Shown: positions 14,243 to 64,000 of the stretch, in pieces
Position numbering within the stretch: position 1 is the first letter of the stretch
How the letters are laid out: every line of letters begins with the position of its first letter
Made by a program: the position numbers and the translations under genes
Virus record (IMG/VR): IMGVR_UViG_3300025789_000028
Location: 1 to 64,000 of that record
Length of the DNA: 64,000 nt
Reading direction: 5' to 3' (one strand)
Origin: a virus
The notes under the pieces: model-generated
What the model was told of the DNA's origin: nothing
The model's database searches: none
What the model saw: only the letters and a program-made list of their open reading frames with translations

Positions 14243-14508
14243 CAGATGATGAAGAAATGAACTTACTGATCCAGCGTGACAAAGAATATGTTGCTGGTGA
14301 AAGTGCAAAGTATTTAGGTAAAAAATACACGTTTCCTGATGGGAACTATATTGAAGTAATTCAAATCAAAAGTCGTGGCCCTGGACAAAACTATATCACG
14401 TACCACATCAAGCAAGGCCCTGGCATTGATAGAAAATTGATTATACCTTTATCAGAGTTTGGTGGAACGTATGGACATTTGTTTCAGGGAAACGCGGAGA
14501 AAAAGTAA
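14239..14508 (+). CDS. Unknown 89-residue protein
   Basis: Starts at the ATGA overlap. Composition suggests a small beta barrel (KKYTFPDGNYIEVIQIKSRG). No motif recognised. It ends just before the membrane-protein gene. Confidence 0.65.
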   Translation: MTDDEEMNLLIQRDKEYVAGESAKYLGKKYTFPDGNYIEVIQIKSRGPGQNYITYHIKQGPGIDRKLIIPLSEFGGTYGHLFQGNAEKK

Positions 14509-14514
14509 TAAATA
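14508..14514 (+). promoter_or_regulatory. Late-type ATAAATA motif
   Basis: ATAAATA begins at the stop codon of the preceding gene and ends 4 bases before ATG 14519. No Shine-Dalgarno is present. Confidence 0.45.
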
Positions 14515-14518
14515 TAAC

Positions 14519-16165
14519 ATGTCCACTCTAAAAAAGATATTCAGTTTATCAACACTTACACTAGCAGTAGCACTTACATTAAGTGTTATTGCCGCCTGGT
14601 ATAGTATCCAAGGCTTGGTAGCAATTTTCGCCGCGGCGGTTGTTCCCATTATGATCATGGGAGGCTCATTGGAGTTTGCCAAAGTTGTGACTACATTGTG
14701 GCTGCATACCTATTGGAATCGTGCATCAATATTACTACGATTATATCTAGTGCCTGCGGTCGTGTTTTTAGCACTACTAACAAGCATGGGTATCTTTGGA
14801 TTTTTAAGTAAAGCACATAGTGATCAAAGTTTAGTTAGTGGTGATGTCGCTGCCAAACTTGCAATCTACGATGAAAAGATTAAAACTGAAAAAGATAATA
14901 TTGAAACTGCACGTAAAGCCTTGCAACAAATGGATGCACAGGTTGATGCTAGATTAAGTCGTAGTGACGATGATAAGGGCGCCGAACGTGCGGTTGCCAT
15001 TCGTAAGCAACAAGCAAAAGAACGTGCAGACTTACAGAAAACTATCAGCGATTCACAAAATAAGATTTCACAAATAAATGAAGAACGTGCTCCGGTTGCG
15101 GCTGAAAATCGTAAGGTCGAGGCTGAAGTAGGTCCTATCAAATACATTGCCGCATTAATCTATGGTGATAATCCAGACAGTAGTTTACTTGAACGTGCTG
15201 TGCGTTGGGTTATTATATTGATTGTGTTTGTATTTGACCCACTAGCACTTACCCTTGTGTTGGCAAGTACATCAAGTTATGAATGGATGAATGAAGAAGA
15301 AACAAAGGTTGAAGAACCTAAAGTTGAAACTGACCCAGAACTTGAAGAGTTTGAAAAAGCATTTGATGAGGGTTTTGAGGATGAACCCACAGTAGAAGAA
15401 ATAGTGGAAGAAGTAGAAGACGAACCTATTCTTTGCTATAAGTGTAATACACCATTACTTAACGCTCCGGGTATAGGACCATTCTGTCCTAACAAGTCAT
15501 GTGACGTTATCGATGGTCCTTTTATGGAGGAAGAAAATGTTACAGATGTACAAACAACTATTGTTGAACCAAATGGAGTGGTGGGAGAAGAATTACCAGA
15601 ACAAGATACTACCCATGCAGACGAACCTAATGTGGACGATGTTCACAGAGTGGAGCCAATTGAAAACGAAATTACAGAAGTAATTACTACTGATGCAGAA
15701 ATTACAATTGATCAAGTTGAGCCAATTAAAGAATTGCCCCCACAGCCTGAAATTAGAACTGAAGGTGTTACACTAGAAGAAGTACACGAAGGTTATGTGC
15801 AGTTTGAAGGTAAGTCAATTACCAAACATGCATTACAAGAAATGCGTCCTGATTTATTCAGATTGTCATTGACTGATGGACATCCTGTAAGCACAAACTT
15901 TGGAACACAATTCCCTAAGTTTGCTGAAAAAGGAAGTATCTTTGTACGTGTAGATGTTTTACCTAATCGTGTTTACAAGTTTGATGGTAGTAGATGGATA
16001 GAGACAAATAAAGATCAAAGTGATTCATACCTATATGATGAACACTACATACAACATTTAATTCATAAAATTGACACTGGTGAATACGATATTGAATTGC
16101 TTTCTGAAAAAGAAAAAGCACAAATCGAATCATATTTGAGCGAACAAAATTCGCAAGATAAGTAA
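14519..16165 (+). CDS. Multi-pass membrane protein with coiled coil and acidic cytoplasmic tail
   Basis: 548 residues from ATG 14519; an upstream in-frame start would bury the gene in its neighbour. Three membrane segments lie in the first 105 residues (LAVALTLSVIAAWYSIQG, LVAIFAAAVVPIMIMGG, LYLVPAVVFLALLTSMGIFG). A coiled coil of about 110 residues follows, then a fourth segment (WVIILIVFVFDPLALTLVLA). The rest is acidic, contains a CYKC..CPNKSC four-Cys cluster and ends with a globular part. The topology resembles a family I recall from T4-like phages; its role is unknown. It directly precedes ClpX. Confidence 0.7.
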   Translation: MSTLKKIFSLSTLTLAVALTLSVIAAWYSIQGLVAIFAAAVVPIMIMGGSLEFAKVVTTLWLHTYWNRASILLRLYLVPAVVFLALLTSMGIFGFLSKAHSDQSLVSGDVAAKLAIYDEKIKTEKDNIETARKALQQMDAQVDARLSRSDDDKGAERAVAIRKQQAKERADLQKTISDSQNKISQINEERAPVAAENRKVEAEVGPIKYIAALIYGDNPDSSLLERAVRWVIILIVFVFDPLALTLVLASTSSYEWMNEEETKVEEPKVETDPELEEFEKAFDEGFEDEPTVEEIVEEVEDEPILCYKCNTPLLNAPGIGPFCPNKSCDVIDGPFMEEENVTDVQTTIVEPNGVVGEELPEQDTTHADEPNVDDVHRVEPIENEITEVITTDAEITIDQVEPIKELPPQPEIRTEGVTLEEVHEGYVQFEGKSITKHALQEMRPDLFRLSLTDGHPVSTNFGTQFPKFAEKGSIFVRVDVLPNRVYKFDGSRWIETNKDQSDSYLYDEHYIQHLIHKIDTGEYDIELLSEKEKAQIESYLSEQNSQDK

Positions 16166-16169
16166 TAGT

Positions 16170-17369
16170 ATGGCAGAAAAGAAATTAACTCATTGCTCTT
16201 TTTGTGGCAATCATAAAGACCAGGTTTCAAAATTAATTGTCGGAGATGATGTTGCTATTTGTAGCGCATGTATCGACTTGTGCAACAATCTTATTGTTGA
16301 CGAGAAAACCGCAGATGAACCTAAAAAGATTGAATCAAATGATTTTGACGCATACACTATTAAAGATCATTTAGATAGTCTTGTTATTGGACAAGACAAT
16401 GCTAAAATGGTATTAAGCGTTGCTATTGCTAATCACTATAAGCGTATCAATTATCCTCCCAAAGATTTAGAAATTCAAAAAGGTAATGTGTTACTGGTTG
16501 GTCCTACTGGTAGTGGTAAAACATTACTTGCACGTAGCGTTGCCAAATATCTTAACGTTCCTTTTGTAGTTGCTGATGCAACCAGCTTAACAGAAGCAGG
16601 TTATGTTGGTGAAGACGTTGAAAGTATGATTAGCATGTTGCTTGCTATGGCTGACGGTGATGTTAAACTAGCAGAACGTGGCATTATCTTTATTGACGAA
16701 GTTGACAAGATCAGCCGTAAAAGCGAAAGCGCAAGTATCACACGTGACGTAAGCGGCGAAGGTGTTCAACAAGCATTGCTTAAACTAGTAGAAGGTACAA
16801 AGTGTCGTGTAACTGCTAATGGCAAACGCAAGAATCCACAAGGTGATATGATTGAAGTTGATACTAAAAACATACTATTCATTGCCGGTGGCGCATTTGT
16901 TGGATTAAATGAAATCATTAAAAATAGAGTACAAGGTAGTGGCATGGGTTTTGGTGCAACTATCAAACCTAAAGATCAAGCAGTAGATTTATCAAAATCT
17001 ACTCCTGATGACTTGGTTAAATTTGGTATGATTCCTGAATTCATTGGTCGCTTTACTACTACCATTGCACTAGAAGAATTGTCATTAGAACAATTAGTAT
17101 CTGTATTAACCAATGTTAAAAACAGTTTCATTGACCAATACAAATACTTGTTTAGTATTGATAACATTGAATTGTCATTTACTGATGATGCCATCAAACA
17201 ACTTGCTCAAAATTGTATTGATTTAAAGACAGGTGCACGTGGTCTACAAACAGAATTAGAAAAAGTATTGATGCCGCATATGTTCCATATTCACAAATAC
17301 AAGAAAAATAATATCACCGAGATAAATATTACTACAAATTTGGTAAAGGAACCCAAGGCAGGTATATGA
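16170..17369 (+). CDS. clpX: ClpX, AAA+ unfoldase of the Clp protease
   Basis: Unfolds tagged proteins and feeds them to ClpP. 399 residues, near the usual length. The N-terminal zinc domain has C9, C12, C31, C34. Walker A is GPTGSGKT (111-118), Walker B IIFIDE (172-177), and the pore loop GYVG (144-147). Two functional loops differ from E. coli: the ClpP-docking IGF tripeptide is MGF (259-261), and the RKH substrate loop is RKN (220-222). The final ATGA overlaps the bS21 gene. A phage ClpP lies at 22733, so a dedicated phage pair is likely. The RKN change may alter recognition of ssrA-type tags (inference). Confidence 0.95.
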   Translation: MAEKKLTHCSFCGNHKDQVSKLIVGDDVAICSACIDLCNNLIVDEKTADEPKKIESNDFDAYTIKDHLDSLVIGQDNAKMVLSVAIANHYKRINYPPKDLEIQKGNVLLVGPTGSGKTLLARSVAKYLNVPFVVADATSLTEAGYVGEDVESMISMLLAMADGDVKLAERGIIFIDEVDKISRKSESASITRDVSGEGVQQALLKLVEGTKCRVTANGKRKNPQGDMIEVDTKNILFIAGGAFVGLNEIIKNRVQGSGMGFGATIKPKDQAVDLSKSTPDDLVKFGMIPEFIGRFTTTIALEELSLEQLVSVLTNVKNSFIDQYKYLFSIDNIELSFTDDAIKQLAQNCIDLKTGARGLQTELEKVLMPHMFHIHKYKKNNITEINITTNLVKEPKAGI

Positions 17370-17587
17370 AATCATTCGGTAGAAAAGTATTAGTACAAGA
17401 CGGTAATTTTGAAAAAGCACTACGCAAACTAAAGAAAAAAGTTACAGAGTCTAATTTGCTTCAAGAAGTGCGTGACCGTGAAGCATACGTTAAACCAACC
17501 ACAAAAAGAAAAATCGCAAAGAGCCAAGCCAAGAGCCGTTGGCGCAAACATATTCGTTCACAAGAACTTCCACCCAAACTATTTTGA
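17366..17587 (+). CDS. rpsU: Ribosomal protein bS21
   Basis: bS21 sits on the small subunit near the anti-Shine-Dalgarno end of 16S rRNA and takes part in initiation. 73 residues, matching the family: FEKALRKLKKKVTESNLLQE, then VRDREAYVKPTTKRKIAKSQ, and a basic C-terminal tail ending PKLF. The hallmark RDREAYVKPTTKRK is equivalent to the bacterial RRREFYEKPT block. It is translationally coupled to ClpX by ATGA. bS21 genes are known in some large aquatic phages, where they may replace the host copy on ribosomes. Confidence 0.92.
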   Translation: MKSFGRKVLVQDGNFEKALRKLKKKVTESNLLQEVRDREAYVKPTTKRKIAKSQAKSRWRKHIRSQELPPKLF

Positions 17588-17618
17588 CCAAAATAGTTTA
17601 TTTTTTTGCGTAATAGTG

Positions 17619-17624
17619 TATAAT
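17619..17624 (+). promoter_or_regulatory. Promoter -10 of the hsp20 gene
   Basis: TATAAT is followed by AAATA. No good -35 sits 17 bases upstream, only a T tract and TTTGCGTA, which also precedes the promoter at 13540. The overlapping TATAATAAATA could also serve late transcription. Confidence 0.5.
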
Positions 17625-17632
17625 AAATAATG

Positions 17633-17660
17633 TTGTAGATGCCGATAGTCGGGTCTACAA
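17633..17660 (+). promoter_or_regulatory. Stem-loop at the 5' end of the hsp20 leader
   Basis: TTGTAGA (17633-17639) pairs with TCTACAA (17654-17660), and the stem continues with CCGA/TCGG around a TAG loop with one bulged G. It would start within 1-3 bases of the predicted transcription start. The Shine-Dalgarno (AGGAG near 17680) lies outside it. Confidence 0.55.
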
Positions 17661-17689
17661 TAGTCATATTTGCTTATAGGAGAAATAAA

Positions 17690-18145
17690 ATGACAAACAC
17701 ACTAACCCTTCGCTCCCTTGACATTCCGTCAATTCACAAATTTGCAGTTGGTTTCGACAACATGTTTGACGAAATAATGCGAACATCTCAAGCTAACACA
17801 AATTATCCCCCATACAATATCGTTAAACACGATGAAGACAACTTCAGCATTGAACTTGCTGTGGCTGGCTTTGATGAGGGTGAAATTGACGTTCAATTGA
17901 ATAACAATCAATTGGTAATTAATGGTCAAAAGGCTGTGGAATTAACAGAAGACGGTGACGTTAAATCTGTTGAATATCTACACCGCGGGATTAGTTCACG
18001 TGATTTCTCTCGCACGTTCACACTTGCGGATCATGTAGAAGTAGTAACTGCAACGGTTGCTAATGGTATCTTACGTATTGACCTTGAACGCAAAATTCCT
18101 GAGGAAAAGAAACCCAAGAAGATTGCAATCAATTACAATAAATAA
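17690..18145 (+). CDS. Small heat-shock protein, IbpA-like Hsp20
   Basis: Holds unfolded proteins in a refoldable state. 151 residues from the ATG after AGGAGAAATAAA. The N-terminus (FAVGFDNMFDEIM) and YPPYNIV match IbpA/IbpB. The alpha-crystallin domain spans about 40-130 (FSIELAVAGFDEGEIDVQLN and NGILRIDLERKIPEEKKPKK). The GILRIDLER block includes the usual conserved strand. Hsp20 genes are known in T4-like phages. Its place beside ClpX, bS21 and ClpS suggests a shared proteostasis programme. Confidence 0.92.
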   Translation: MTNTLTLRSLDIPSIHKFAVGFDNMFDEIMRTSQANTNYPPYNIVKHDEDNFSIELAVAGFDEGEIDVQLNNNQLVINGQKAVELTEDGDVKSVEYLHRGISSRDFSRTFTLADHVEVVTATVANGILRIDLERKIPEEKKPKKIAINYNK

Positions 18146-18207: not shown

Positions 18208-18522
18208 ATGGCAAACGCAAGCCCAGAAGTTCGTAATCTTATTAAACCTAACTTGGCTCTAAAAGAACCTCCATTGTTTAGAATCATCTACCTTAATGAT
18301 GAACATACAAGCATGGAATTTGTAATTCATACACTAGTTGAATATTTTAATTACAATTCTGATACAGCAAGTCAAATTACTGTTGATATCCATGAAAAGG
18401 GTAGTGCTATTGTTGCTGTTTTGCCCTTTGAAATTGCAGAACAAAAAGGCATCGAAGTTACATTAGATGCTAGGGCACAAGGTTATCCACTACAAGTTAA
18501 AGTGGAAGCAGAATCAAACTGA
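18208..18522 (+). CDS. clpS: ClpS-like N-degron adaptor
   Basis: ClpS delivers proteins with destabilising N-terminal residues to ClpA-ClpP. 104 residues. The core LFRIIYLNDEHTSMEFVIHT aligns with the bacterial NDDYTPMEFV region, with Asn-Asp kept and the second Asp replaced by Glu. The helix after it and VDIHEKGSAIVAVLPFEIAE keep the His and the VA(E) surface of the pocket. The N-terminal extension is short. ClpS normally works with ClpA, which is absent here, so host ClpA may be redirected (inference). Confidence 0.88.
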   Translation: MANASPEVRNLIKPNLALKEPPLFRIIYLNDEHTSMEFVIHTLVEYFNYNSDTASQITVDIHEKGSAIVAVLPFEIAEQKGIEVTLDARAQGYPLQVKVEAESN

Positions 18523-19209
18523 TATATTGATTCGTTTAGCCCAATAGGGGCTTTTATGTAGGTAGGGATTGTTTACATACCCTACATTATTTAAAGTAGT
18601 ATCAACTGATTTTTCATAACTACCAAATACCCAATACTTAATTTTCTTTTCAGTATCATGCTTTAAAGTTTTTTGTAAGGGTATTTGGTTTTTAGTTATT
18701 TCAGGCTTTTCCCCGAAGTATAATTTTTCATCAGGGACTGCGTTAGTGACAACTATAATTTGTTTTACATCTAAATGTCGTTGTAATTTTTCAACGGATT
18801 TATTTAGATAAGTCAAGTCATCAAATCGTGCCGCAGTATAAACCATATCTTGTAATGTATTGGTATCACTATTGTTCCAACCATTGGCTCCAACAATAGC
18901 AACACCATCTACGATTACCACACTATGATGCATCATGTGAACAGTAGGCAAGTGTTTGAGTAAACTCATCAAATGTTCTGTTCTTCCTGGTAAGTCAACT
19001 GTATTAGAATATTCAGATGTTCCTGGCACATAAAAAACACCTTGATAGAATCTACCAAGGTGTGCTAATGTTTGTACTGTAGTGCGAATATCGCTACTAA
19101 CGTTACCTGCTACCAAACAGTATAAACTTGTGCTTTTGCCTTCCCAGTTAAAATTATCCTCAGGGGATAGATTTAAATCGCTGATAACATCAAAGCCAAT
19201 GTCTTGCAT
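18514..19209 (-). CDS. Degenerate calcineurin-like phosphoesterase fold (pseudoenzyme)
   Basis: 231 residues follow the metallophosphoesterase plan, with metal-binding positions replaced. The expected SDLH is VISDLNLS, GD is VAGNVSSD, GNHE is VPGTSEYSN, the HHAP position is VVTNAVPDE, and GHTH is VFGSYEKSVD. Scaffold elements remain, including VVIVDGVAIVGANGW, which parallels DVTFIGATLW in the intact relative at 25855. It is probably non-catalytic. It overlaps the ClpS gene tail to tail by 9 bases and shares one base with the upstream membrane-protein gene. Confidence 0.65.
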   Translation of the reverse strand: MQDIGFDVISDLNLSPEDNFNWEGKSTSLYCLVAGNVSSDIRTTVQTLAHLGRFYQGVFYVPGTSEYSNTVDLPGRTEHLMSLLKHLPTVHMMHHSVVIVDGVAIVGANGWNNSDTNTLQDMVYTAARFDDLTYLNKSVEKLQRHLDVKQIIVVTNAVPDEKLYFGEKPEITKNQIPLQKTLKHDTEKKIKYWVFGSYEKSVDTTLNNVGYVNNPYLHKSPYWAKRINISV

Positions 19210-19675: not shown

Positions 19676-20170
19676 ATGAGTTCCAAAAAGATCCTAGCAT
19701 ACATGAGCGAAGAATTACCCACAATTCCTGCTCAAAAACGTTTAGTATATAGAACAGACGAAAAAGAAATTCGAAAACTGTTTAAGGTATTAAATGCGAC
19801 TATATTCAATGGAGAACTTCCCACTCCTAGATTTAGGATCATTAAGCGAACAACTGATTACTGGGGTCAATGCGAAGCAGATGACTTTAATCCAAATCCC
19901 AACACTAAAAGATCAAACTGTATCATACATTTGTCAAACAAATGGTATTGCAAACAATGGTTGATTGACTCCTTAGCCCACGAGATGTGTCACCAATATC
20001 AATGGGATGTTCTTAGTAAAGAACGTGCTAAACAAGGGTTACCACCTATCATGAGTCATGGTCCTAGTTTTTATATATTCAGAGATAAATTAAGAGAGCA
20101 TGGAATCCCACTTAAAAGATATCATAGAATACACAAATGGTGGAAACATCAAAATCTCTTTAAGTGCTAA
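19676..20170 (+). CDS. SprT-like zinc metalloprotease
   Basis: 164 residues. The signature is SLAHEMCHQYQWD, an HExxH metal site with catalytic Glu, plus a later SHGPSFYIFRDKL supplying the third His. The N-terminal helix-strand (IRKLFKVLNATIFNGELPTP) is typical of SprT/Spartan proteins. Eukaryotic Spartan degrades DNA-protein crosslinks. The bacterial and phage relatives are less understood. No C-terminal zinc ribbon is seen. Confidence 0.85.
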   Translation: MSSKKILAYMSEELPTIPAQKRLVYRTDEKEIRKLFKVLNATIFNGELPTPRFRIIKRTTDYWGQCEADDFNPNPNTKRSNCIIHLSNKWYCKQWLIDSLAHEMCHQYQWDVLSKERAKQGLPPIMSHGPSFYIFRDKLREHGIPLKRYHRIHKWWKHQNLFKC

Positions 20171-22732: not shown

Positions 22733-23329
22733 ATGAGCCTAGTTCCAATGGTACTTGAACAAACTTCCCGCGGTGAGCGTAGTTATGATATCTATAGCCG
22801 ATTATTGCGTGACCGTGTTATTTTGCTTGAAGGTGAAGTACATGACCAAATGGCAAACTTGATTGCCGCACAATTATTGTATCTTGAATCAGAAGATCCA
22901 GAAAAGGACATCAGTCTTTACATTAACAGTCCCGGCGGTAGTGTAACTGCTGGTATGGCTATCTATGATACCATGCAATTTATTCGCCCCGATGTTCAAA
23001 CAATCGTTATGGGTCAAGCATGTAGTATGGGTAGTTTACTTGCTCAAGCAGGTGCAAAGGGTAAGCGTATGATTCTTCCCAATGCACGACACATGATTCA
23101 TCAACCTTCAGGTGGTGCACGTGGTCAGGCAACTGATATGTTGATTCAAGTCAACGAAATCATTGAAATGAAAAAAAACCTCACACAAATTTATGTTAAA
23201 CATAATAGTGCAGGCAAGACTTTTGAACAGTTGGCCGCAGATATGGAACGTGACTTTTTCATGAGTGCAGAGGATGCAGTAATGTATGGGTTGGCAGACA
23301 AAGTGTTAGACAAGCGTCCTACTACTTGA
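22733..23329 (+). CDS. clpP: ClpP, serine protease subunit of the Clp complex
   Basis: Forms the tetradecameric proteolytic barrel that degrades proteins unfolded by ClpX or ClpA. 198 residues. Catalytic Ser98 lies in [10 protein letters not shown], His123 in MIHQPSGG and Asp near 170 in [15 protein letters not shown] replaces the usual AASMG. There is little or no propeptide: the protein begins at [20 protein letters not shown], close to the mature bacterial start. It is separated from clpX by 5.4 kb and has its own promoter, so the ClpX:ClpP ratio may be set separately. Confidence 0.95.
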
Positions 23330-57250: not shown

Positions 57251-59014
57251 ATGGATATTAGAGTTAAATTTAACACACTTGACAGTCAGGCAGCATTTGC
57301 AAAAAAATGGGCGGTAGACGTTACACCGGATATGGTCGATCATTTGGACATTTCTTGGCACCTATTGCAACATGCACTTAGTGCTGAAAGTAATGTTACA
57401 GATTTTGTCCAATTAGACACTACCACCGAGCATGAATTTTTAGTATCTAGTGCTGATGGAAACTTTGGTGATTTAGCAATAAGTTCTACACCGATGAAAA
57501 ATATGGCTGGATGGTATCATGTTGTTAGTACCCAAGGTCTTGCATTAGGTAAAATTGTAAAGTCAATTGACATTACTAGTATCCCAATGACATTCTTAGA
57601 TAATGTCAGTACTATTAATAGTATTAATGTAACACCTGCTACTGTTGATCCTACTAGCAGTGCTGGTCAGTGGGCAAGAATTCGTGTTGCTAGTCAATAT
57701 CGTCCATTGCTAACTTCGTTTGCTACACATGACGTTAATTACTTGAGCAAGCCTGAACTATACATTTTAGACTCTGGTATTAATTTTGAGCACCAAGAAC
57801 TTAATTATGACGGCCTTGACAAAGTAAATTTCTACACATTACCCCAATTCAGTGGTAATTTTGCCGACGACATTGGTCACGGCACTGGTGTTGCAAGTAT
57901 GGCGGTAGGTAAGAATTTAGGTATATGTTCTTATGTTAAGTTAATGAATGTTAAAATTGGTGGCATGGTTAACGGAGAACAATATAATGCAAACTTGTTA
58001 GATGTTGGTCAAGCAATCGATGCTATCATGAATGCCATTGTAGCAGATCCTACAGTTACTAGAGTTATTAACATGTCTTGGGGTATTCCTCGTAGTGCAT
58101 GGCTAGATGCTAAAGTGCAATCATTAATAGATGCCGGTGCATTTGTTGTATGTGCGGCTGGTAACGGACATATTGACGTTGATCAAATTTCACCTGCCGG
58201 AATGAACACAGTAATGACAGTTGGTGCAATCGATCAATACGACATTCCAGCCGGTTTCAATAATATTGCACCAAGTGATTCAGGTTTAACAACCAGTATT
58301 GGTTTGGGATTAGATATTTTTGCTCCTGGTGATAACGTAATGGTTGCAGACGGCATTTCAGGTACTACAAGTTATCATGTAACATCTGGTACATCTTTCT
58401 CAGCTCCTTTAGTGTCAGGTGTTGCGTGTGTAATTGCATCAATGAATTCAAATCCATTGTTTTATTCTGACTTAGTTAAATTAATTGTTAACACTGCCAC
58501 TGAACATGCATTACTATTTGAAGATTCATCGTTCTCAGAAAATCAAAATAGACTAGTTTATTTGGCTACCGCAGATATGGCAGCATCATACAAAGAAACT
58601 AATGCTGTTAGTTATTTGGGTGTCCACGATAAAGAAGATGTTATTGTTGCTGACATTAACTCAAACTTAGACACATCACAAATTGAAAAATTAGCTCCTA
58701 CTGATCCTGTAGTTTTTTCTGTAGAAATGGCTGATGATTCTAAAGACTATGCACAATTTTTAGTTTGCGATCCTGTTACAGGTGTTATTACTATTACAAA
58801 ACCTAATCTTCAATTGCCAGAAGAAACCCGTTTAAAAATGGTAAACTTTATCGGAGTTGCAAAGAATTCATCTATTACTATGAAAACAAATATCTTGTTC
58901 TTCTTTGTTAATAATCCATTATACAAAGACACATTAGAATCTGATATTACATTGGCACTTACTGACGTTAACAGTATCAGTTTCTTCGCTACTTGGAAAC
59001 AAAGTATCAAGTAA
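57251..59014 (+). CDS. Subtilisin-like (S8) serine protease
   Basis: 587 residues. Catalytic Asp174 (YILDSGINFEHQEL), His210 (DIGHGTGVASMAVG) and Ser382 (SGTSFSAPLVSGVA) are all present, with the oxyanion Asn305 (CAAGNGHID). The first 160 residues are a non-catalytic domain (VKFNTLDSQAAFAKKWAVDV) without a signal peptide, probably a virion-anchoring part. A C-terminal region of about 150 residues is beta-rich. Late promoter and context point to a structural or maturation protease, or a virion-borne degrader of surface proteins. Confidence 0.88.
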   Translation: MDIRVKFNTLDSQAAFAKKWAVDVTPDMVDHLDISWHLLQHALSAESNVTDFVQLDTTTEHEFLVSSADGNFGDLAISSTPMKNMAGWYHVVSTQGLALGKIVKSIDITSIPMTFLDNVSTINSINVTPATVDPTSSAGQWARIRVASQYRPLLTSFATHDVNYLSKPELYILDSGINFEHQELNYDGLDKVNFYTLPQFSGNFADDIGHGTGVASMAVGKNLGICSYVKLMNVKIGGMVNGEQYNANLLDVGQAIDAIMNAIVADPTVTRVINMSWGIPRSAWLDAKVQSLIDAGAFVVCAAGNGHIDVDQISPAGMNTVMTVGAIDQYDIPAGFNNIAPSDSGLTTSIGLGLDIFAPGDNVMVADGISGTTSYHVTSGTSFSAPLVSGVACVIASMNSNPLFYSDLVKLIVNTATEHALLFEDSSFSENQNRLVYLATADMAASYKETNAVSYLGVHDKEDVIVADINSNLDTSQIEKLAPTDPVVFSVEMADDSKDYAQFLVCDPVTGVITITKPNLQLPEETRLKMVNFIGVAKNSSITMKTNILFFFVNNPLYKDTLESDITLALTDVNSISFFATWKQSIK

Positions 59015-60229: not shown

Positions 60230-60241
60230 TGATATAGTTGG

Positions 60242-60312
60242 AGCGGGATACCAGAATCGAACTGGTCACTAAACCTTGGCAAGGTTTCGTTTTACCGATA
60301 AACTAATCCCGC
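60242..60312 (-). tRNA. tRNA-Gly (GCC)
   Basis: Acceptor GCGGGAT/ATCCCGC, anticodon stem AAACC/GGTTT with loop TTGCCAA, T-stem ACCAG/CTGGT with loop TTCGATT. Discriminator U, CCA encoded. Confidence 0.9.
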
Positions 60313-60321
60313 ATTATTTTC

Positions 60322-60711
60322 TCAATATAGAGGTAAGCCTTGCGCTTTTCTTCCTCTACCTTTATTTGCACCGCCTAAAAATTCAGTTTGACTATGACAA
60401 TTAGGACATATCAATCTTAAATTATCAGGACTATCATTTCCCGGATCACCGTTTACATGATCTACATGAAGTACTAGCTTTTTGTTTTGCCATTCACTTA
60501 CACCGCATACTTCACATTTATAACCTCTGTCTTCTGCTAAATATCTCCTAGCAGTTGACCTTTCAATTCTTTTCAAATTACCGTTATACCATTCTTTTTT
60601 ATGTAAAAAAGATTTATGCAATCCGTTACATACATTAGAACAATATTTTCCTGTTTTATGATGAGGATTAAATTCAAAATCCTTATTACAATTTACACAA
60701 TTTGCTTTCAT
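60322..60711 (-). CDS. HNH endonuclease with zinc motifs
   Basis: 129 residues. CEVCGVSEWQNKKLVLHVDH then VNGDPGNDSPDNLRLICPNC is the HNH/beta-beta-alpha-metal core with its CxxC pairs. An N-terminal CVNCNKDF..CSNVC zinc finger probably binds DNA. It sits between tRNA genes, a common location for homing endonucleases. AAAGGAG and a palindromic late motif lie upstream. Confidence 0.88.
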   Translation of the reverse strand: MKANCVNCNKDFEFNPHHKTGKYCSNVCNGLHKSFLHKKEWYNGNLKRIERSTARRYLAEDRGYKCEVCGVSEWQNKKLVLHVDHVNGDPGNDSPDNLRLICPNCHSQTEFLGGANKGRGRKAQGLPLY

Positions 60712-60726
60712 AGTAGAGTTCTCCTT

Positions 60727-60744
60727 TAGAGTATTTATACTCTA
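60727..60744 (-). promoter_or_regulatory. Palindromic late-type promoter of the HNH gene
   Basis: The minus strand reads TAGAGTATAAATACTCTA, a perfect 8-bp inverted repeat around AA with TATAAATA inside (60732-60739). AAAGGAG follows before ATG 60711. Confidence 0.6.
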
Positions 60745-60767
60745 CCGCTAAAAACGCATAATTTTAT

Positions 60768-60950
60768 TTAGCTTCCTGTTAAGCTATATAAAATAATTGT
60801 GTTAAACGTTTCACCCTCAAGATTCAAATTAAGTGTGATTTGATCATTGTTAATTCCATACATATCAGGTTCAATAGCATATGACAATGTAAGATTGTCT
60901 TTTAAATACTGCTTAATTTGTGCTTGTAGTGTCGGGTCTAATGGATCCAT
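60768..60950 (-). CDS. Unknown acidic 60-residue protein
   Basis: MDPLDPTLQAQIKQYLKDNL then TLSYAIEPDMYGINNDQITL. GGAAA precedes the ATG. Small alpha/beta protein, possibly ligand binding; no family recognised. Flanked by the HNH gene and the initiator-like tRNA. Confidence 0.6.
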   Translation of the reverse strand: MDPLDPTLQAQIKQYLKDNLTLSYAIEPDMYGINNDQITLNLNLEGETFNTIILYSLTGS

Positions 60951-60970
60951 GATATTTCCTATGTAATTGG

Positions 60971-61041
60971 ATGCGGGTGACAGATTCGAACTGCCGATGC
61001 ACCTGGCTTATGAGACCGGTGTGGTGACCACCCTACCCGCG
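60971..61041 (-). tRNA. tRNA-Met (CAU), initiator-like
   Basis: Acceptor CGCGGGT/ACCCGCA has a C1:A72 mismatch, the hallmark of bacterial initiator tRNA. The D-stem GGTG/CACC gives a purine11:pyrimidine24 pair, also initiator-type. The anticodon loop is CTCATAA; two of the three stem G:C pairs near the loop are kept (the third is U:G). T-stem GGCAG/CTGTC with loop TTCGAAT, CCA encoded. The D-loop lacks GG and the anticodon stem needs a bulge in my fold, so the structure is irregular. Confidence 0.7.
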
Positions 61042-61049
61042 TAATTTAT

Positions 61050-61232
61050 TTATTCATCTTTGACAGTATCTTTAACTGCCCGAACGTTTTCTTTTTCTTC
61101 TACGACCTCTTCCGGTAACGGTGGAGGTACGTATCTTGGTTTAGGTTCTTTCTTTCCAAAGATAGCATCCATTCTATCATCGAATTCAGACAGAGGAATG
61201 CTCATTGGTCTTGGCCTATCACCCTTACTCAT
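61050..61232 (-). CDS. Unknown Pro/Glu-rich 60-residue protein
   Basis: MSKGDRPRPMSIPLSEFDDR then MDAIFGKKEPKPRYVPPPLP and an acidic end. Likely disordered. It starts with a one-base overlap at the stop of the parvulin gene, so the two are coupled. Confidence 0.6.
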   Translation of the reverse strand: MSKGDRPRPMSIPLSEFDDRMDAIFGKKEPKPRYVPPPLPEEVVEEKENVRAVKDTVKDE

Positions 61233-61501
61233 TATGCAGTCCTCTTGACCAAATGATAACCAAACTGTGTTTGAACCGGTCCAACAACAACACCTACCGG
61301 GTTATTGAATGCTGCCTCTTCAAAAGGTTTTACCATTTGTCCTCGACCAAATAATCCTAAATCGCCACCTTGACGACCACTTGGGCACTTGCTATGTTGA
61401 CTTGCTAATATAGCAAAATCAGCGCCGGACTTGATTTGCTCTTGTAAGTTAACTGCTTCTGCTAAAGAAGGTACTAAAATGTGACTTGCTCTTACCTGCA
61501 T
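61232..61501 (-). CDS. Parvulin-type peptidyl-prolyl cis-trans isomerase
   Basis: 89 residues, the size of E. coli PpiC. RASHILVPSLAEAVNLQEQI, SGADFAILASQHSKCPSGRQ then GGDLGLFGRGQMVKPFEEAA, and VQTQFGYHLVKR are the parvulin core, with the His pair and Cys of the active site. It catalyses proline isomerisation during folding. It adds to the phage chaperone set (Hsp20, Clp). It is a stand-alone catalytic domain without a signal peptide. Confidence 0.92.
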   Translation of the reverse strand: MQVRASHILVPSLAEAVNLQEQIKSGADFAILASQHSKCPSGRQGGDLGLFGRGQMVKPFEEAAFNNPVGVVVGPVQTQFGYHLVKRTA

Positions 61502-61510
61502 AAATTTCCT

Positions 61511-61654
61511 TTATTCTGCTTCTACGTTAGTTGTATTGCCTGCACGTCCGCCGCCTGTTTGTTGCTCTGGTTGTGCTGTTGGGCTTTTTTTGTTTTGTGT
61601 GTATAAGAAAGCGCCGATGATAATTGCTACGATTAATGCTCCAATGATAAACAT
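61511..61654 (-). CDS. Small membrane protein, 47 residues
   Basis: MFIIGALIVAIIIGAFLYTQ is one membrane helix, then a polar Gly/Gln/Thr-rich tail ending NTTNVEAE. AAAGGAG lies upstream and a late motif is at 61681. It is 9 bases before the parvulin start, so the genes are likely co-transcribed. Confidence 0.7.
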   Translation of the reverse strand: MFIIGALIVAIIIGAFLYTQNKKSPTAQPEQQTGGGRAGNTTNVEAE

Positions 61655-61680
61655 AATAATCTCCTTTGTGTTGAGACTAA

Positions 61681-61687
61681 TATTTAT
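61681..61687 (-). promoter_or_regulatory. Late-type ATAAATA promoter
   Basis: Minus-strand ATAAATA about 26 bases before ATG 61654, with AAAGGAG between. Confidence 0.55.
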
Positions 61688-61718
61688 CATAATTCTATAG
61701 CATAAAAAATATGAATGG

Positions 61719-61791
61719 TAGAAGTGGTGAGACTCGAACTCACGATAAACACCGTATGAAGGTGGCGCATTAGCCGCTATGCTACACTTCT
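61719..61791 (-). tRNA. tRNA with CAU anticodon, elongator type (Met or Ile2)
   Basis: Acceptor AGAAGTG/CACTTCT, D-stem GCAT/ATGC with GG in the loop, anticodon loop TTCATAC, T-stem GTGAG/CTCAC. Discriminator A, CCA encoded. C11:G24 marks it as an elongator. A lysidine-modified Ile tRNA or Met elongator cannot be separated by eye. Confidence 0.85.
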
Positions 61792-61800
61792 ATTGTTTGG

Positions 61801-61872
61801 TGCGACCTACTGGATTCGAACCAGTCCCGTAAGAATTATGAGTTCTCGGCACTACCTCTATGCTAAAGTCGC
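61801..61872 (-). tRNA. tRNA with CAU anticodon, elongator type (Met or Ile2)
   Basis: Acceptor GCGACTT/AGGTCGC, D-stem GCAT/GTGC, anticodon stem GAGAA/TTCTT with loop CTCATAA, T-stem ACTGG/CCAGT with loop TTCGAAT. Discriminator A, CCA encoded. Third CAU tRNA of the window. Confidence 0.87.
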
Positions 61873-61895
61873 ATAATATTTGGTGGACTGTGTAG

Positions 61896-61917
61896 AAACC
61901 TATGAATTCATAGGTTT
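61896..61917. terminator. Perfect palindrome with T-run
   Basis: AAACCTAT and ATAGGTTT flank GAATTC, so the 22 bases form a perfect palindrome. A T-run follows on the plus strand; on the minus strand the tract is weaker. It separates the tRNA pair from the gene at 61934. Confidence 0.55.
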
Positions 61918-61933
61918 TTATGTATAATACAGA

Positions 61934-62125
61934 TTAAGCGTAAGATTCTTGGCCAGCAATCTGCAAAACACAAAGTAATGTGGTAGCCTCATTAAAGATT
62001 TTAGATTGTAAACCTAAAGCCTGTTGTTCTGACGCATATTCATGCGCCTGCGCTAGTGTTTCAAATTCAGTATAATTTACTGAAAGAACATCATCGATCC
62101 AATTTTGTACTGATACTGTAAACAT
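61934..62125 (-). CDS. Unknown 63-residue protein, paralogue of the next gene
   Basis: MFTVSVQNWIDDVLSVNYTE then FETLAQAHEYASEQQALGLQ and SKIFNEATTLLCVLQI. The middle aligns with FDSRDEAVAHATEHHGRGFS and TKVYDEYYHLLYEFFV of the 62128 protein. An alpha/beta fold is likely. Function unknown. Confidence 0.65.
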   Translation of the reverse strand: MFTVSVQNWIDDVLSVNYTEFETLAQAHEYASEQQALGLQSKIFNEATTLLCVLQIAGQESYA

Positions 62126-62127
62126 GA

Positions 62128-62337
62128 TTATGCGTATGTGTTAATTTCTGCGTCAACAAAGAATTCATATAACAAGTGATAATACTCATCATATACCTTT
62201 GTACTGAACCCACGTCCGTGATGTTCTGTTGCGTGTGCAACTGCTTCATCTCTTGAATCAAATTCAAAAGCCTGTACATTCAATGCGCCATCGTCTCCGT
62301 AACTATGAATGTGTGAAATGTGTTTTCTACCGTGCAT
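62128..62337 (-). CDS. Unknown 69-residue protein, paralogue of 61934
   Basis: MHGRKHISHIHSYGDDGALN then VQAFEFDSRDEAVAHATEHH. His-rich N-terminus. Shares the F.(S/T)..(E/Q)A..HA/YA...G pattern with the downstream gene. CGGAG precedes the ATG; the two genes are two bases apart. Confidence 0.65.
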   Translation of the reverse strand: MHGRKHISHIHSYGDDGALNVQAFEFDSRDEAVAHATEHHGRGFSTKVYDEYYHLLYEFFVDAEINTYA

Positions 62338-62348
62338 GTTATTCTCCG

Positions 62349-63398
62349 TTATTTAAATCTTTTGTACCATATCTCGGCACTCTTATTAGTATATTTAGTC
62401 AAACTAAACTGATTTAGTCTAACATTGATAGCAGGAAAGTTATATGCACGATTCAATGCTTTAGTAATATCTGCGCTATCAGTAGGGTCAGAACACCCTG
62501 TTGCTAACCACGGAATTTCTGTTGTGCCAACTAAAGGGATACCCTCACTAATCAAATCTGCACCAACAATATTAAATGTTTCACTGAAATTACATTGCAT
62601 GCCTATGTCCATATCAGAACACAAATGCAAAAATTCTTCATGGGGTGCCCAATCATGTCTAATTAATCTATGCCCTGCACTATAAAGATGTGCAAAGAAG
62701 CCCTCTAGATTATGTAGTACAGGTTGACCTTTCATTTCAACACGACCTGCATTGATATGAAAATGCAATTTTTTACCTTGTTGAGTAGCAAAGTCAAGTG
62801 CGGCTACTGCTTGAACCATGTGATTCTTTAATGGTCTAACAGCACCAAAACATCCTACATCAATATGGTCCTTAGTCTTATAAATTTTTCTTGGTGGACT
62901 AAATTTCTGTGGATAGTAATTGGGTAGATAAAAGACTTTCTTCAATGTTTCACTATCACTCCAACGATTAACAGTTTGTAAGTAAGTTCTAATTTCACGC
63001 AACATTCTAGGTGCGTTTACACCAATACTAATGTTTTCAAAATGACTATAGTCACCGATCCAATTCATTGCCATGCCTTCGCCAGCCATGAAAGGCATCT
63101 CACTATGAATGCGAACAATCCACTTTACATTAGGATGTAATTTACAAAGTGATGTGAACTTACTGGGAACAACCCATAATGCTTCAATAATAACATAGTC
63201 TGGATTGTGTTTAGTAACTAGTCTGTCAATACAATTATTATCGATTGCAACTTCCATGACTGATTTAATACCAACTTTATTCAGCATTCTATTAACAAAT
63301 GATGCAGAATTGTATAGACCTGTAGTCAATCCAATTTTAGTATCTACTTTTTCACTATAATTTTCTCTGCGTTTGAGAATGAATAAAATTTTCGACAT
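62349..63398 (-). CDS. GT-B (GT4-like) glycosyltransferase
   Basis: 349 residues from ATG 63398 (MSKILFILKRRENYSEKVDT); a TTG at 63425 would add nine residues. The C-terminal Rossmann domain has VGCFGAVRPLKNHMVQAVAA and the donor-site motif CNFSETFNIVGADLISEGIP (E..7..E). The N-terminal domain includes WIVRIHSEMPFMAGEG. Members transfer sugars from nucleotide donors. The target may be DNA, virion or host surface glycan. A late motif lies upstream. Confidence 0.82.
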   Translation of the reverse strand: MSKILFILKRRENYSEKVDTKIGLTTGLYNSASFVNRMLNKVGIKSVMEVAIDNNCIDRLVTKHNPDYVIIEALWVVPSKFTSLCKLHPNVKWIVRIHSEMPFMAGEGMAMNWIGDYSHFENISIGVNAPRMLREIRTYLQTVNRWSDSETLKKVFYLPNYYPQKFSPPRKIYKTKDHIDVGCFGAVRPLKNHMVQAVAALDFATQQGKKLHFHINAGRVEMKGQPVLHNLEGFFAHLYSAGHRLIRHDWAPHEEFLHLCSDMDIGMQCNFSETFNIVGADLISEGIPLVGTTEIPWLATGCSDPTDSADITKALNRAYNFPAINVRLNQFSLTKYTNKSAEIWYKRFK

Positions 63399-63426
63399 GT
63401 ATGGTGTATTGCTTTCGTTAGTCAAA

Positions 63427-63433
63427 TATTTAT
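63427..63433 (-). promoter_or_regulatory. Late-type ATAAATA motif
   Basis: Minus-strand ATAAATA, 28 bases before ATG 63398. Confidence 0.5.
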
Positions 63434-63475
63434 CGGAATAAACTACGACTGTATATTAAGTTAATGTGACAATGG

Positions 63476-63546
63476 TACCCAGTAGAGGTAACGCTCCTCT
63501 GTCGCACGATTATCAGTCGTGTGCTCTACTTTTGAGCTAACCGGGT
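63476..63546 (-). tRNA. tRNA-Ile (GAU) with atypical T-loop
   Basis: Acceptor ACCCGGT/ACTGGGT, D-stem GCTC/GAGC, anticodon stem CACGA/TCGTG with loop CTGATAA, T-stem AGAGG/CCTCT. The T-loop is AGCGTTA in place of the near-universal TTC-containing loop. Discriminator A, CCA encoded. Confidence 0.8.
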
Positions 63547-63555
63547 AAATTTTGG

Positions 63556-63630
63556 AGGTGCGAGTCAGATTTGAACTGACGGTTTTACGGATTTGCAATC
63601 CGTTGCATTGGACCACTCTGCCACCGCACC
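63556..63630 (-). tRNA. tRNA-Cys (GCA)
   Basis: Acceptor GGTGCGG/TCGCACC, anticodon stem ACGGA/TCCGT with loop TTGCAAA, T-stem GTCAG/CTGAC with loop TTCAAAT. Discriminator U, as expected for Cys; CCA encoded. Confidence 0.9.
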
Positions 63631-63633
63631 GTG

Positions 63634-63759
63634 TTAATGATTTAGTTTTGCTATTGCGCCCAAAACACAATGAATGTCTAAATGCAGTCTATGAGCAATT
63701 TCAGTTGCGTCTAGATGCCTATCTAATAACTCTTTAACTTGCATTACGATGTATGACAT
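63634..63759 (-). CDS. Small helix-turn-helix-like protein, 41 residues
   Basis: MSYIVMQVKELLDRHLDATE then IAHRLHLDIHCVLGAIAKLN. LLDRHLDATEIAHRLHLDIH fits a helix-turn-helix. GGGAG lies upstream and the conserved 36-base element (copy B) precedes it. It resembles the 49-residue protein at 6462 in plan. Confidence 0.6.
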   Translation of the reverse strand: MSYIVMQVKELLDRHLDATEIAHRLHLDIHCVLGAIAKLNH

Positions 63760-63774
63760 AGAATCTCCCGTCTA

Positions 63775-63810
63775 TACATATATAACGCCTCAGAAGTCAT
63801 TCCTGTTGAC
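63775..63810 (-). promoter_or_regulatory. Conserved 36-base element, copy B
   Basis: Minus-strand GTCAACAGGAAT, four variable bases, TCTGAGGCGTT, then ATATATG. It matches copy A at 2906 in both blocks and in spacing, 16 bases before the small HTH gene. Confidence 0.55.
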
Positions 63811-63828
63811 ATGTTTTGGGTATCTTGG

Positions 63829-63915
63829 TGGAGAGCCAGGGAGTCGAACCCTGTGACCGTATTACTACGGTCTACGGATTAGCAATCCGCTGCATTACCA
63901 TCCTGCCCGCTCTCC
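63829..63915 (-). tRNA. tRNA-Ser (GCU)
   Basis: Acceptor GGAGAGC/GCTCTCC, anticodon stem GCGGA/TCCGT with loop TTGCTAA, long variable arm with GACCGTA/TACGGTC pairing, T-stem CAGGG/CCCTG. Class II structure, CCA encoded. Confidence 0.9.
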
Positions 63916-63925
63916 ATTATCTTGG

Positions 63926-64000
63926 AGGAAGATGTGAGATTCGAACTCACGGGACCTTTCGGACCTCTAGTTTTCAAGACTAGTGCAATCGACCACTCTG
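63926..64000 (-). tRNA. tRNA-Ser (UGA), 5' end outside the window
   Basis: Anticodon stem CTAGT/ACTAG with loop CTTGAAA (anticodon TGA), a variable arm with GGTCC..GGTCC, T-stem GTGAG/CTCAC, acceptor 3' strand ATCTTCC, CCA encoded. The first part of the gene is cut off by the window. Confidence 0.85.

Follow-up and report, generated by a model that had tools for sequence, protein, structure and literature searches.

A ribosomal protein gene overlapping clpX in a phage proteostasis island: comparative evidence for translational coupling

Why would a phage start the gene of a ribosomal protein inside the stop codon of an unfoldase gene? Proteins of the bS21 family are common in aquatic phages; a bS21 gene whose start codon overlaps clpX, in a lineage of uncultured phages with natural members that lack bS21, provides for a direct comparison that bears on the role of the phage protein. 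We analyzed a window of 64,000 bases, which is part of a virus record of 92,059 bases (IMG/VR IMGVR_UViG_3300025789_000028), itself a fragment, in which bS21 is present in a single copy. Read directly from GGCAGGTATATGAAATCA in the window, the bS21 ATG occupies positions 17366-17368, and the ClpX TGA, positions 17367-17369. The features of the region are the following.

14459..16165, plus strand: predicted membrane/coiled-coil protein, function unassigned, start codon uncertain; always 5' of clpX in the group
16170..17369, plus strand: clpX, AAA+ unfoldase (Pfam, alignment with E. coli ClpX, motifs)
17355..17362, plus strand: AAGGCAGG, Shine-Dalgarno (SD)-like stretch 5' of bS21, missing in most relatives (duplex energy)
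17366..17369, plus strand: ATGA stop/start overlap of clpX and bS21, kept in relatives (direct reading)
17366..17587, plus strand: rpsU-like gene for ribosomal protein bS21, 73 amino acids (PF01165, 57.3 bits against a Pfam cut-off of 27; PHROG S21)
17576..17607, plus strand: A/U-rich hairpin with a U-run behind it, which may terminate the clpX-bS21 unit (fold)
17619..17629, plus strand: TATAATAAATA, promoter-like element with an ATAAATA core that recurs in relatives (sequence reading)
17633..17695, plus strand: candidate ROSE-type RNA thermometer in the hsp20 leader, in which the SD pairs with UUGCU (Rfam, covariation, fold)
17690..18145, plus strand: hsp20, small heat-shock protein (PF00011, 71.5 bits; PHROG 432, 150 bits)
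18208..18522, plus strand: clpS, N-degron adaptor (PF02617, 83.8 bits; motif positions kept in 93 relatives)
18514..19209, minus strand: metallophosphoesterase-like, syntenic (phrog_1649, 30.9 bits; conserved position)
19676..20170, plus strand: SprT-like metallopeptidase (PF10263, 34.9 bits)
22733..23329, plus strand: clpP, serine peptidase with intact Ser-His-Asp motifs (PF00574, 272 bits; alignment with E. coli ClpP)

The PF01165 score places the ribosomal protein within the bS21 family, and ClpX is recognized by its C4 zinc finger (50.8 bits) and AAA_2 (113.8 bits) Pfam domains as well as by an alignment with E. coli ClpX that scores 408 bits. The median dN/dS values in this family of loci are 0.16 for bS21, 0.15 for ClpX, 0.16 for ClpS, 0.12 for ClpP and 0.25 for Hsp20, which indicates purifying selection on both bS21 and ClpX; judging by their sequences, both look functional.

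Three scans of viral contigs, with the bS21 protein, a bS21 protein alignment and ClpX, respectively, yielded about 150 loci, and a script scored the overlap in 82 non-identical clpX-bS21 loci. The bS21 start lies inside the 3' end of clpX in 79 of these, so that the ATGA overlap noticed in the preliminary description is both correct and not a product of chance. The exact 4-base ATGA, or a TTGA variant at the same offset, is found in 64 of the 82 loci. The starts chosen at offsets of -18 to -34 are possibly wrong by some codons, but all of them are within clpX. In the 3 non-overlapping loci, which belong to a more divergent branch, the two genes are spaced by 9-15 bases. Two further bS21 loci that were missed by the script were found by hand, one overlapping (L073) and one with the genes 2 bases apart (L087).

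The SD signal was assessed as the energy of the duplex with the anti-SD over the 15 bases ending 3 bases before the start codon. In most loci, bS21 has no SD (median of +0.45 kcal/mol), and in the same loci, hsp20 always has a strong one (median of -7.1); the medians for clpP and for ATG codons internal to clpX are -4.0 and -1.9, respectively. The separated loci carry an SD of their own before bS21 (-10.9 in L033, -7.2 in L093, -3.8 in L090, and AAGGAGG in L087). Thus, an SD is present in the loci that have lost the overlap and usually missing from those that have kept it, a pattern that argues for termination-reinitiation from clpX and provides the best evidence for this mode of bS21 translation. 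The translational coupling of clpX and bS21 that had been proposed from the window by itself is well supported by this comparison across relatives, and we consider it highly probable. Loci L077, L033, L087, L090 and L093 make up a divergent ClpX branch, in part of which a short spacer with an SD of its own takes the place of the overlap.

In E. coli, ATGA overlaps lead to termination-reinitiation (PMC6728339, PMC10666635). The coupled pairs in these reports share the 4-base overlap and the co-direction with clpX-bS21, but their downstream genes usually keep an SD, whereas most of the clpX-linked bS21 genes do not. Given that, in E. coli, reinitiation dropped by 60-90% in three of five pairs and ceased in a fourth when the SD was removed (PMC6728339), SD-less coupling might yield too little bS21 for thousands of ribosomes. 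The clpX gene also has no SD (median of 0.3), and 4 bases separate it, in the window, from the stop codon of the membrane/coiled-coil gene, so that clpX may itself be coupled to the gene upstream. The co-direction, the overlap, and the A/U-rich hairpin with its U-run 3' of bS21 suggest that clpX and bS21 are carried on a single message. This hairpin, the stem of which overlaps the bS21 stop, folds at -6.2 kcal/mol (z of -4.1); a scan for consensus terminators, which needs 3 G-C pairs, listed none, this hairpin included.

An alternative is that the overlap reflects nothing but genome compaction, that is, a single insertion of bS21 by clpX that was subsequently kept, with the two proteins acting independently and their joint control being meaningless. 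A 4-base overlap is the commonest spacing of prokaryotic gene pairs (PMC10666635), and bS21 is dispensable in this slot: it lies behind 83 of 100 distinct ClpX genes and is missing from 17. However, the overlap persists among relatives with bS21 identities of 59-81%, the SDs are mostly gone, and the separated pairs do have an SD, which makes compaction as the sole cause unlikely, in our assessment. Whatever the reason for the arrangement, the combination of a kept overlap with a lost SD implies that bS21 translation would depend on clpX.

It is less probable still, and indeed improbable, that bS21 owes most of its expression to an initiation site of its own or to a promoter internal to clpX, without any real coupling. 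The window bS21 is an exception among the relatives in that the SD-like AAGGCAGG before it is of moderate strength (-5.6), so that de novo initiation is possible in the window, and there is a promoter-like match at 17131-17158. Most relatives, however, have no SD before bS21, and the promoter-like matches number 6, compared to 6.1 expected in shuffled sequences.

Among the 80 loci from the ClpX scan, bS21 is located directly 3' of clpX in 47 and is absent from 33. In the latter, the clpX stop is not part of an ATGA and is mostly followed, about 105 bases on, by the hsp20 leader. A search for PF01165 elsewhere in 12 bS21-less contigs (37-333 kb) gave no match. Thus, bS21 is an optional cassette, seen only in the slot behind clpX. 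On the tree of the 100 distinct ClpX sequences, at least 6 gains or losses of bS21 are needed to account for its distribution; the distances between bS21 sequences correlate with those between ClpX sequences (Mantel r of 0.68, 0 of 999 permutations), consistent with shared descent. An SD precedes a slightly smaller share of the ORFs in bS21-bearing loci (0.39) than in bS21-less ones (0.47; p of 0.02), and the clpS SD is weaker in the bS21-bearing loci (p of 5e-6), with L073 and L087 counted as bS21-less in both cases, and with the SD-use comparison comprising only 5 independent tree pairs, for which a sign test cannot reach 0.05. A contig of 524,565 bases contains two clpX-bS21 islands in opposite orientations, about 410 kb apart (62539-63723, plus strand, L173, and 472119-473303, minus strand, L168), which could be a real duplication or the result of a joined assembly.

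The best full-length cellular matches of the phage bS21, which come from plasmid records, are those of Neisseria (49% identity) and Burkholderia (46%), over residues 11-73. The C-terminal tail of the phage protein, SQ-x-LP-x-KL-F/Y, is the tail of Burkholderia bS21 (RSQTLPKKLY), from which we tentatively consider a betaproteobacterial host likely. A close cellular ancestor of bS21 was also sought in genome contigs, in which only poor matches of partial length were detected (40-55%; Bacteroidia, Verrucomicrobia and Omnitrophota). Among cultured phages, bS21 reaches at most 49% identity, over partial lengths, ClpX is mostly near 50%, and the clpX-bS21 pair was seen in none.

What could such a protein do in the ribosome? 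According to two reports, bS21 adjoins the anti-SD end of the 16S rRNA, in line with the contact stated in the preliminary description, and phage bS21 can enter ribosomes (PMC9723584, PMC6375957), as is the case of a pelagiphage bS21 expressed in E. coli (PMC6375957). By analogy with this published entry, replacement of the host copy is plausible here, and incorporation of the phage bS21 into host ribosomes appears likely. The same work also describes ribosomes with a phage bS21 as nearly inactive in vitro (PMC6375957), which counts against the explanation that we favor below. A gene of possible relevance to the ribosome is located on the minus strand at 73539-74426 of the record (9539-10426 of L176) and encodes a RimK/ATP-grasp protein resembling the ribosomal protein S6 glutaminyl transferase (PHROG, 114 bits). 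Because bS6 is a platform neighbor of bS21, this might be a second ribosome-directed gene.

The phage bS21 proteins in the published reports come from aquatic lytic phages and evolve under purifying selection (PMC6375957, PMC9723584), and the bS21 in the window is likewise phage-borne and under purifying selection. The frequent occurrence of Hsp20 and Clp genes near bS21 in phages is already published: among 900 bS21 phages, Chen 2022 counts Hsp20 within ten genes of bS21 in 127, and two Clp proteases in 50 and 47 (PMC9723584). In the clades presented there, bS21 is encoded on the reverse strand among capsid and terminase genes, whereas in the window, it is co-directed with clpX, overlaps it and belongs to a proteostasis island; among the scanned neighbors of the window bS21, there was no capsid or terminase match, which sets it apart from those clades. 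The clpX-bS21 overlap, the optional slot and the complete ClpXP/ClpS set are not described in the literature searched, which included few subscription journals and some sources in part only.

The island has the order membrane/coiled-coil protein, clpX, bS21 (optional), dnaK (in some relatives), hsp20, clpS, metallophosphoesterase, SprT and clpP. ClpX contains the C4 zinc domain, Walker A and B, the GYVG pore loop, the Arg finger, sensor 2 and a GF (IGF-type) ClpP-docking loop; its core ATPase and pore motifs are nearly invariant in the 100 relatives, and the window protein has MGF in place of IGF and RKN in place of RKH. ClpP retains the SMG, MIHQP and ERD motifs and, as in the relatives, lacks the propeptide of the E. 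coli protein, its chain beginning directly with the mature N-terminus (MSLVPM...). ClpS keeps ND..T.MEFV, the IH pocket His and EIAEQK, which we take to be residues of the N-degron pocket and of the contact with ClpA. Given the intact motifs of ClpX, ClpP and ClpS and the conserved island, the phage seems to produce a full ClpXP along with its adaptor, and the existence of a phage ClpXP protease is, on these grounds, quite probable. Host ClpP was considered as the sole partner of the phage ClpX and rejected because the phage has its own ClpP. Components of the same protein families (ClpP, ClpX, ClpS, Hsp20 and SprT) have each been reported singly in jumbo phages (review PMC7824862), but here, unlike in those reports, ClpX, ClpP and ClpS are joined in one syntenic island with bS21. 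A single phage lineage hence carries ClpXP, the adaptor ClpS and chaperones together.

The leader between bS21 and hsp20 comprises, in this order, the A/U-rich hairpin with the U-run, TATAATAAATA and a hairpin that is scored by the Rfam model ROSE_3 (33.1 bits, E of 1.4e-5 for 161 bases). Because this score is below the gathering score of 43, we regard the leader as a ROSE-type candidate rather than an Rfam member. The fold of 17633..17695 has a z of -4.6, and RNAalifold predicts 9 pairs, 4 of which show two-sided changes, that is, covariation, in support of the first hairpin; UUGCU pairs with AGGAG, and the heat-shock gene that follows is hsp20 or dnaK. As in ROSE thermometers (RF02523 ROSE_3), there is a GAUGCCGA...UCGGGUC hairpin, pairing of UUGCU with the SD and a small heat-shock gene downstream; unlike the members of RF02523, the window-type leader is found on phage genomes, where it also precedes phage dnaK. 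The same leader was identified before hsp20 or dnaK in 135 fetched loci. Viral contigs were also scanned for the pattern without regard to the gene that follows; with an AGGAG-like SD and an ATG required downstream, 62 matches remained, and almost all of them, by eye, precede Hsp20-like or DnaK-like proteins. These patterns suggest that phages might time chaperone synthesis by temperature via a borrowed RNA switch. The literature searched, with few subscription journals, yielded no mention of a ROSE element at a phage hsp20 or dnaK gene. This leader, present on dozens of viral contigs, is a side find that may matter more than the clpX-bS21 coupling. The candidate also occurs in L004, L006, L007, L014, L168, L184 and other loci.

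Taken as a whole, a phage takeover and proteostasis island is the explanation that we consider reasonably probable. It builds on the overlap and its conservation, the lack of an SD in most relatives, the intact active-site motifs and the synteny. Ribosomes that end clpX would restart at the overlapping ATG, so that bS21 is made in step with ClpX from what we infer to be one message. The phage bS21 would then enter 30S subunits of the host, probably a betaproteobacterium, either late in the infection or all through it, and tune initiation, a role already suggested for bS21 proteins of other phages. The partner of ClpX in a phage ClpXP protease would be the ClpP that the phage encodes, and possibly host ClpP too, while ClpS, DnaK and Hsp20, encoded in neighboring transcription units, would serve protein folding and turnover during infection. 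A further step is conceivable but quite doubtful, namely a self-reinforcing switch, in which bS21 made by SD-less restart yields ribosomes biased toward starting on phage messages by restart or without an SD and, together with ClpXP/ClpS and the thermometer-controlled DnaK and Hsp20, constitutes one heritable unit of translation and proteostasis takeover.

The preliminary description also had ClpX removing a competing factor, so that the phage bS21 would replace the host copy while ClpX clears host bS21 or another competitor from ribosomes; coupling would give the joint timing, and the phage ClpX, its unfoldase motifs intact, has a partner in ClpP, but this idea is unsupported and very improbable because nothing points to such a substrate, ClpX sits with phage ClpP, ClpS and Hsp20 with or without bS21 (17 of the 100 distinct ClpX genes lack it), free exchange or new 30S assembly needs no unfoldase, and the phage's own ClpP makes a general phage ClpXP protease likelier.

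Elsewhere in the window, positions 57251-59014 encode a subtilase-family (Peptidase_S8) protein (105.6 bits), and the minus strand of 60239-64000 carries a phage tRNA cluster with 7 complete tRNAs, 3 of them with a CAT anticodon, and 1 that is cut at the window end.
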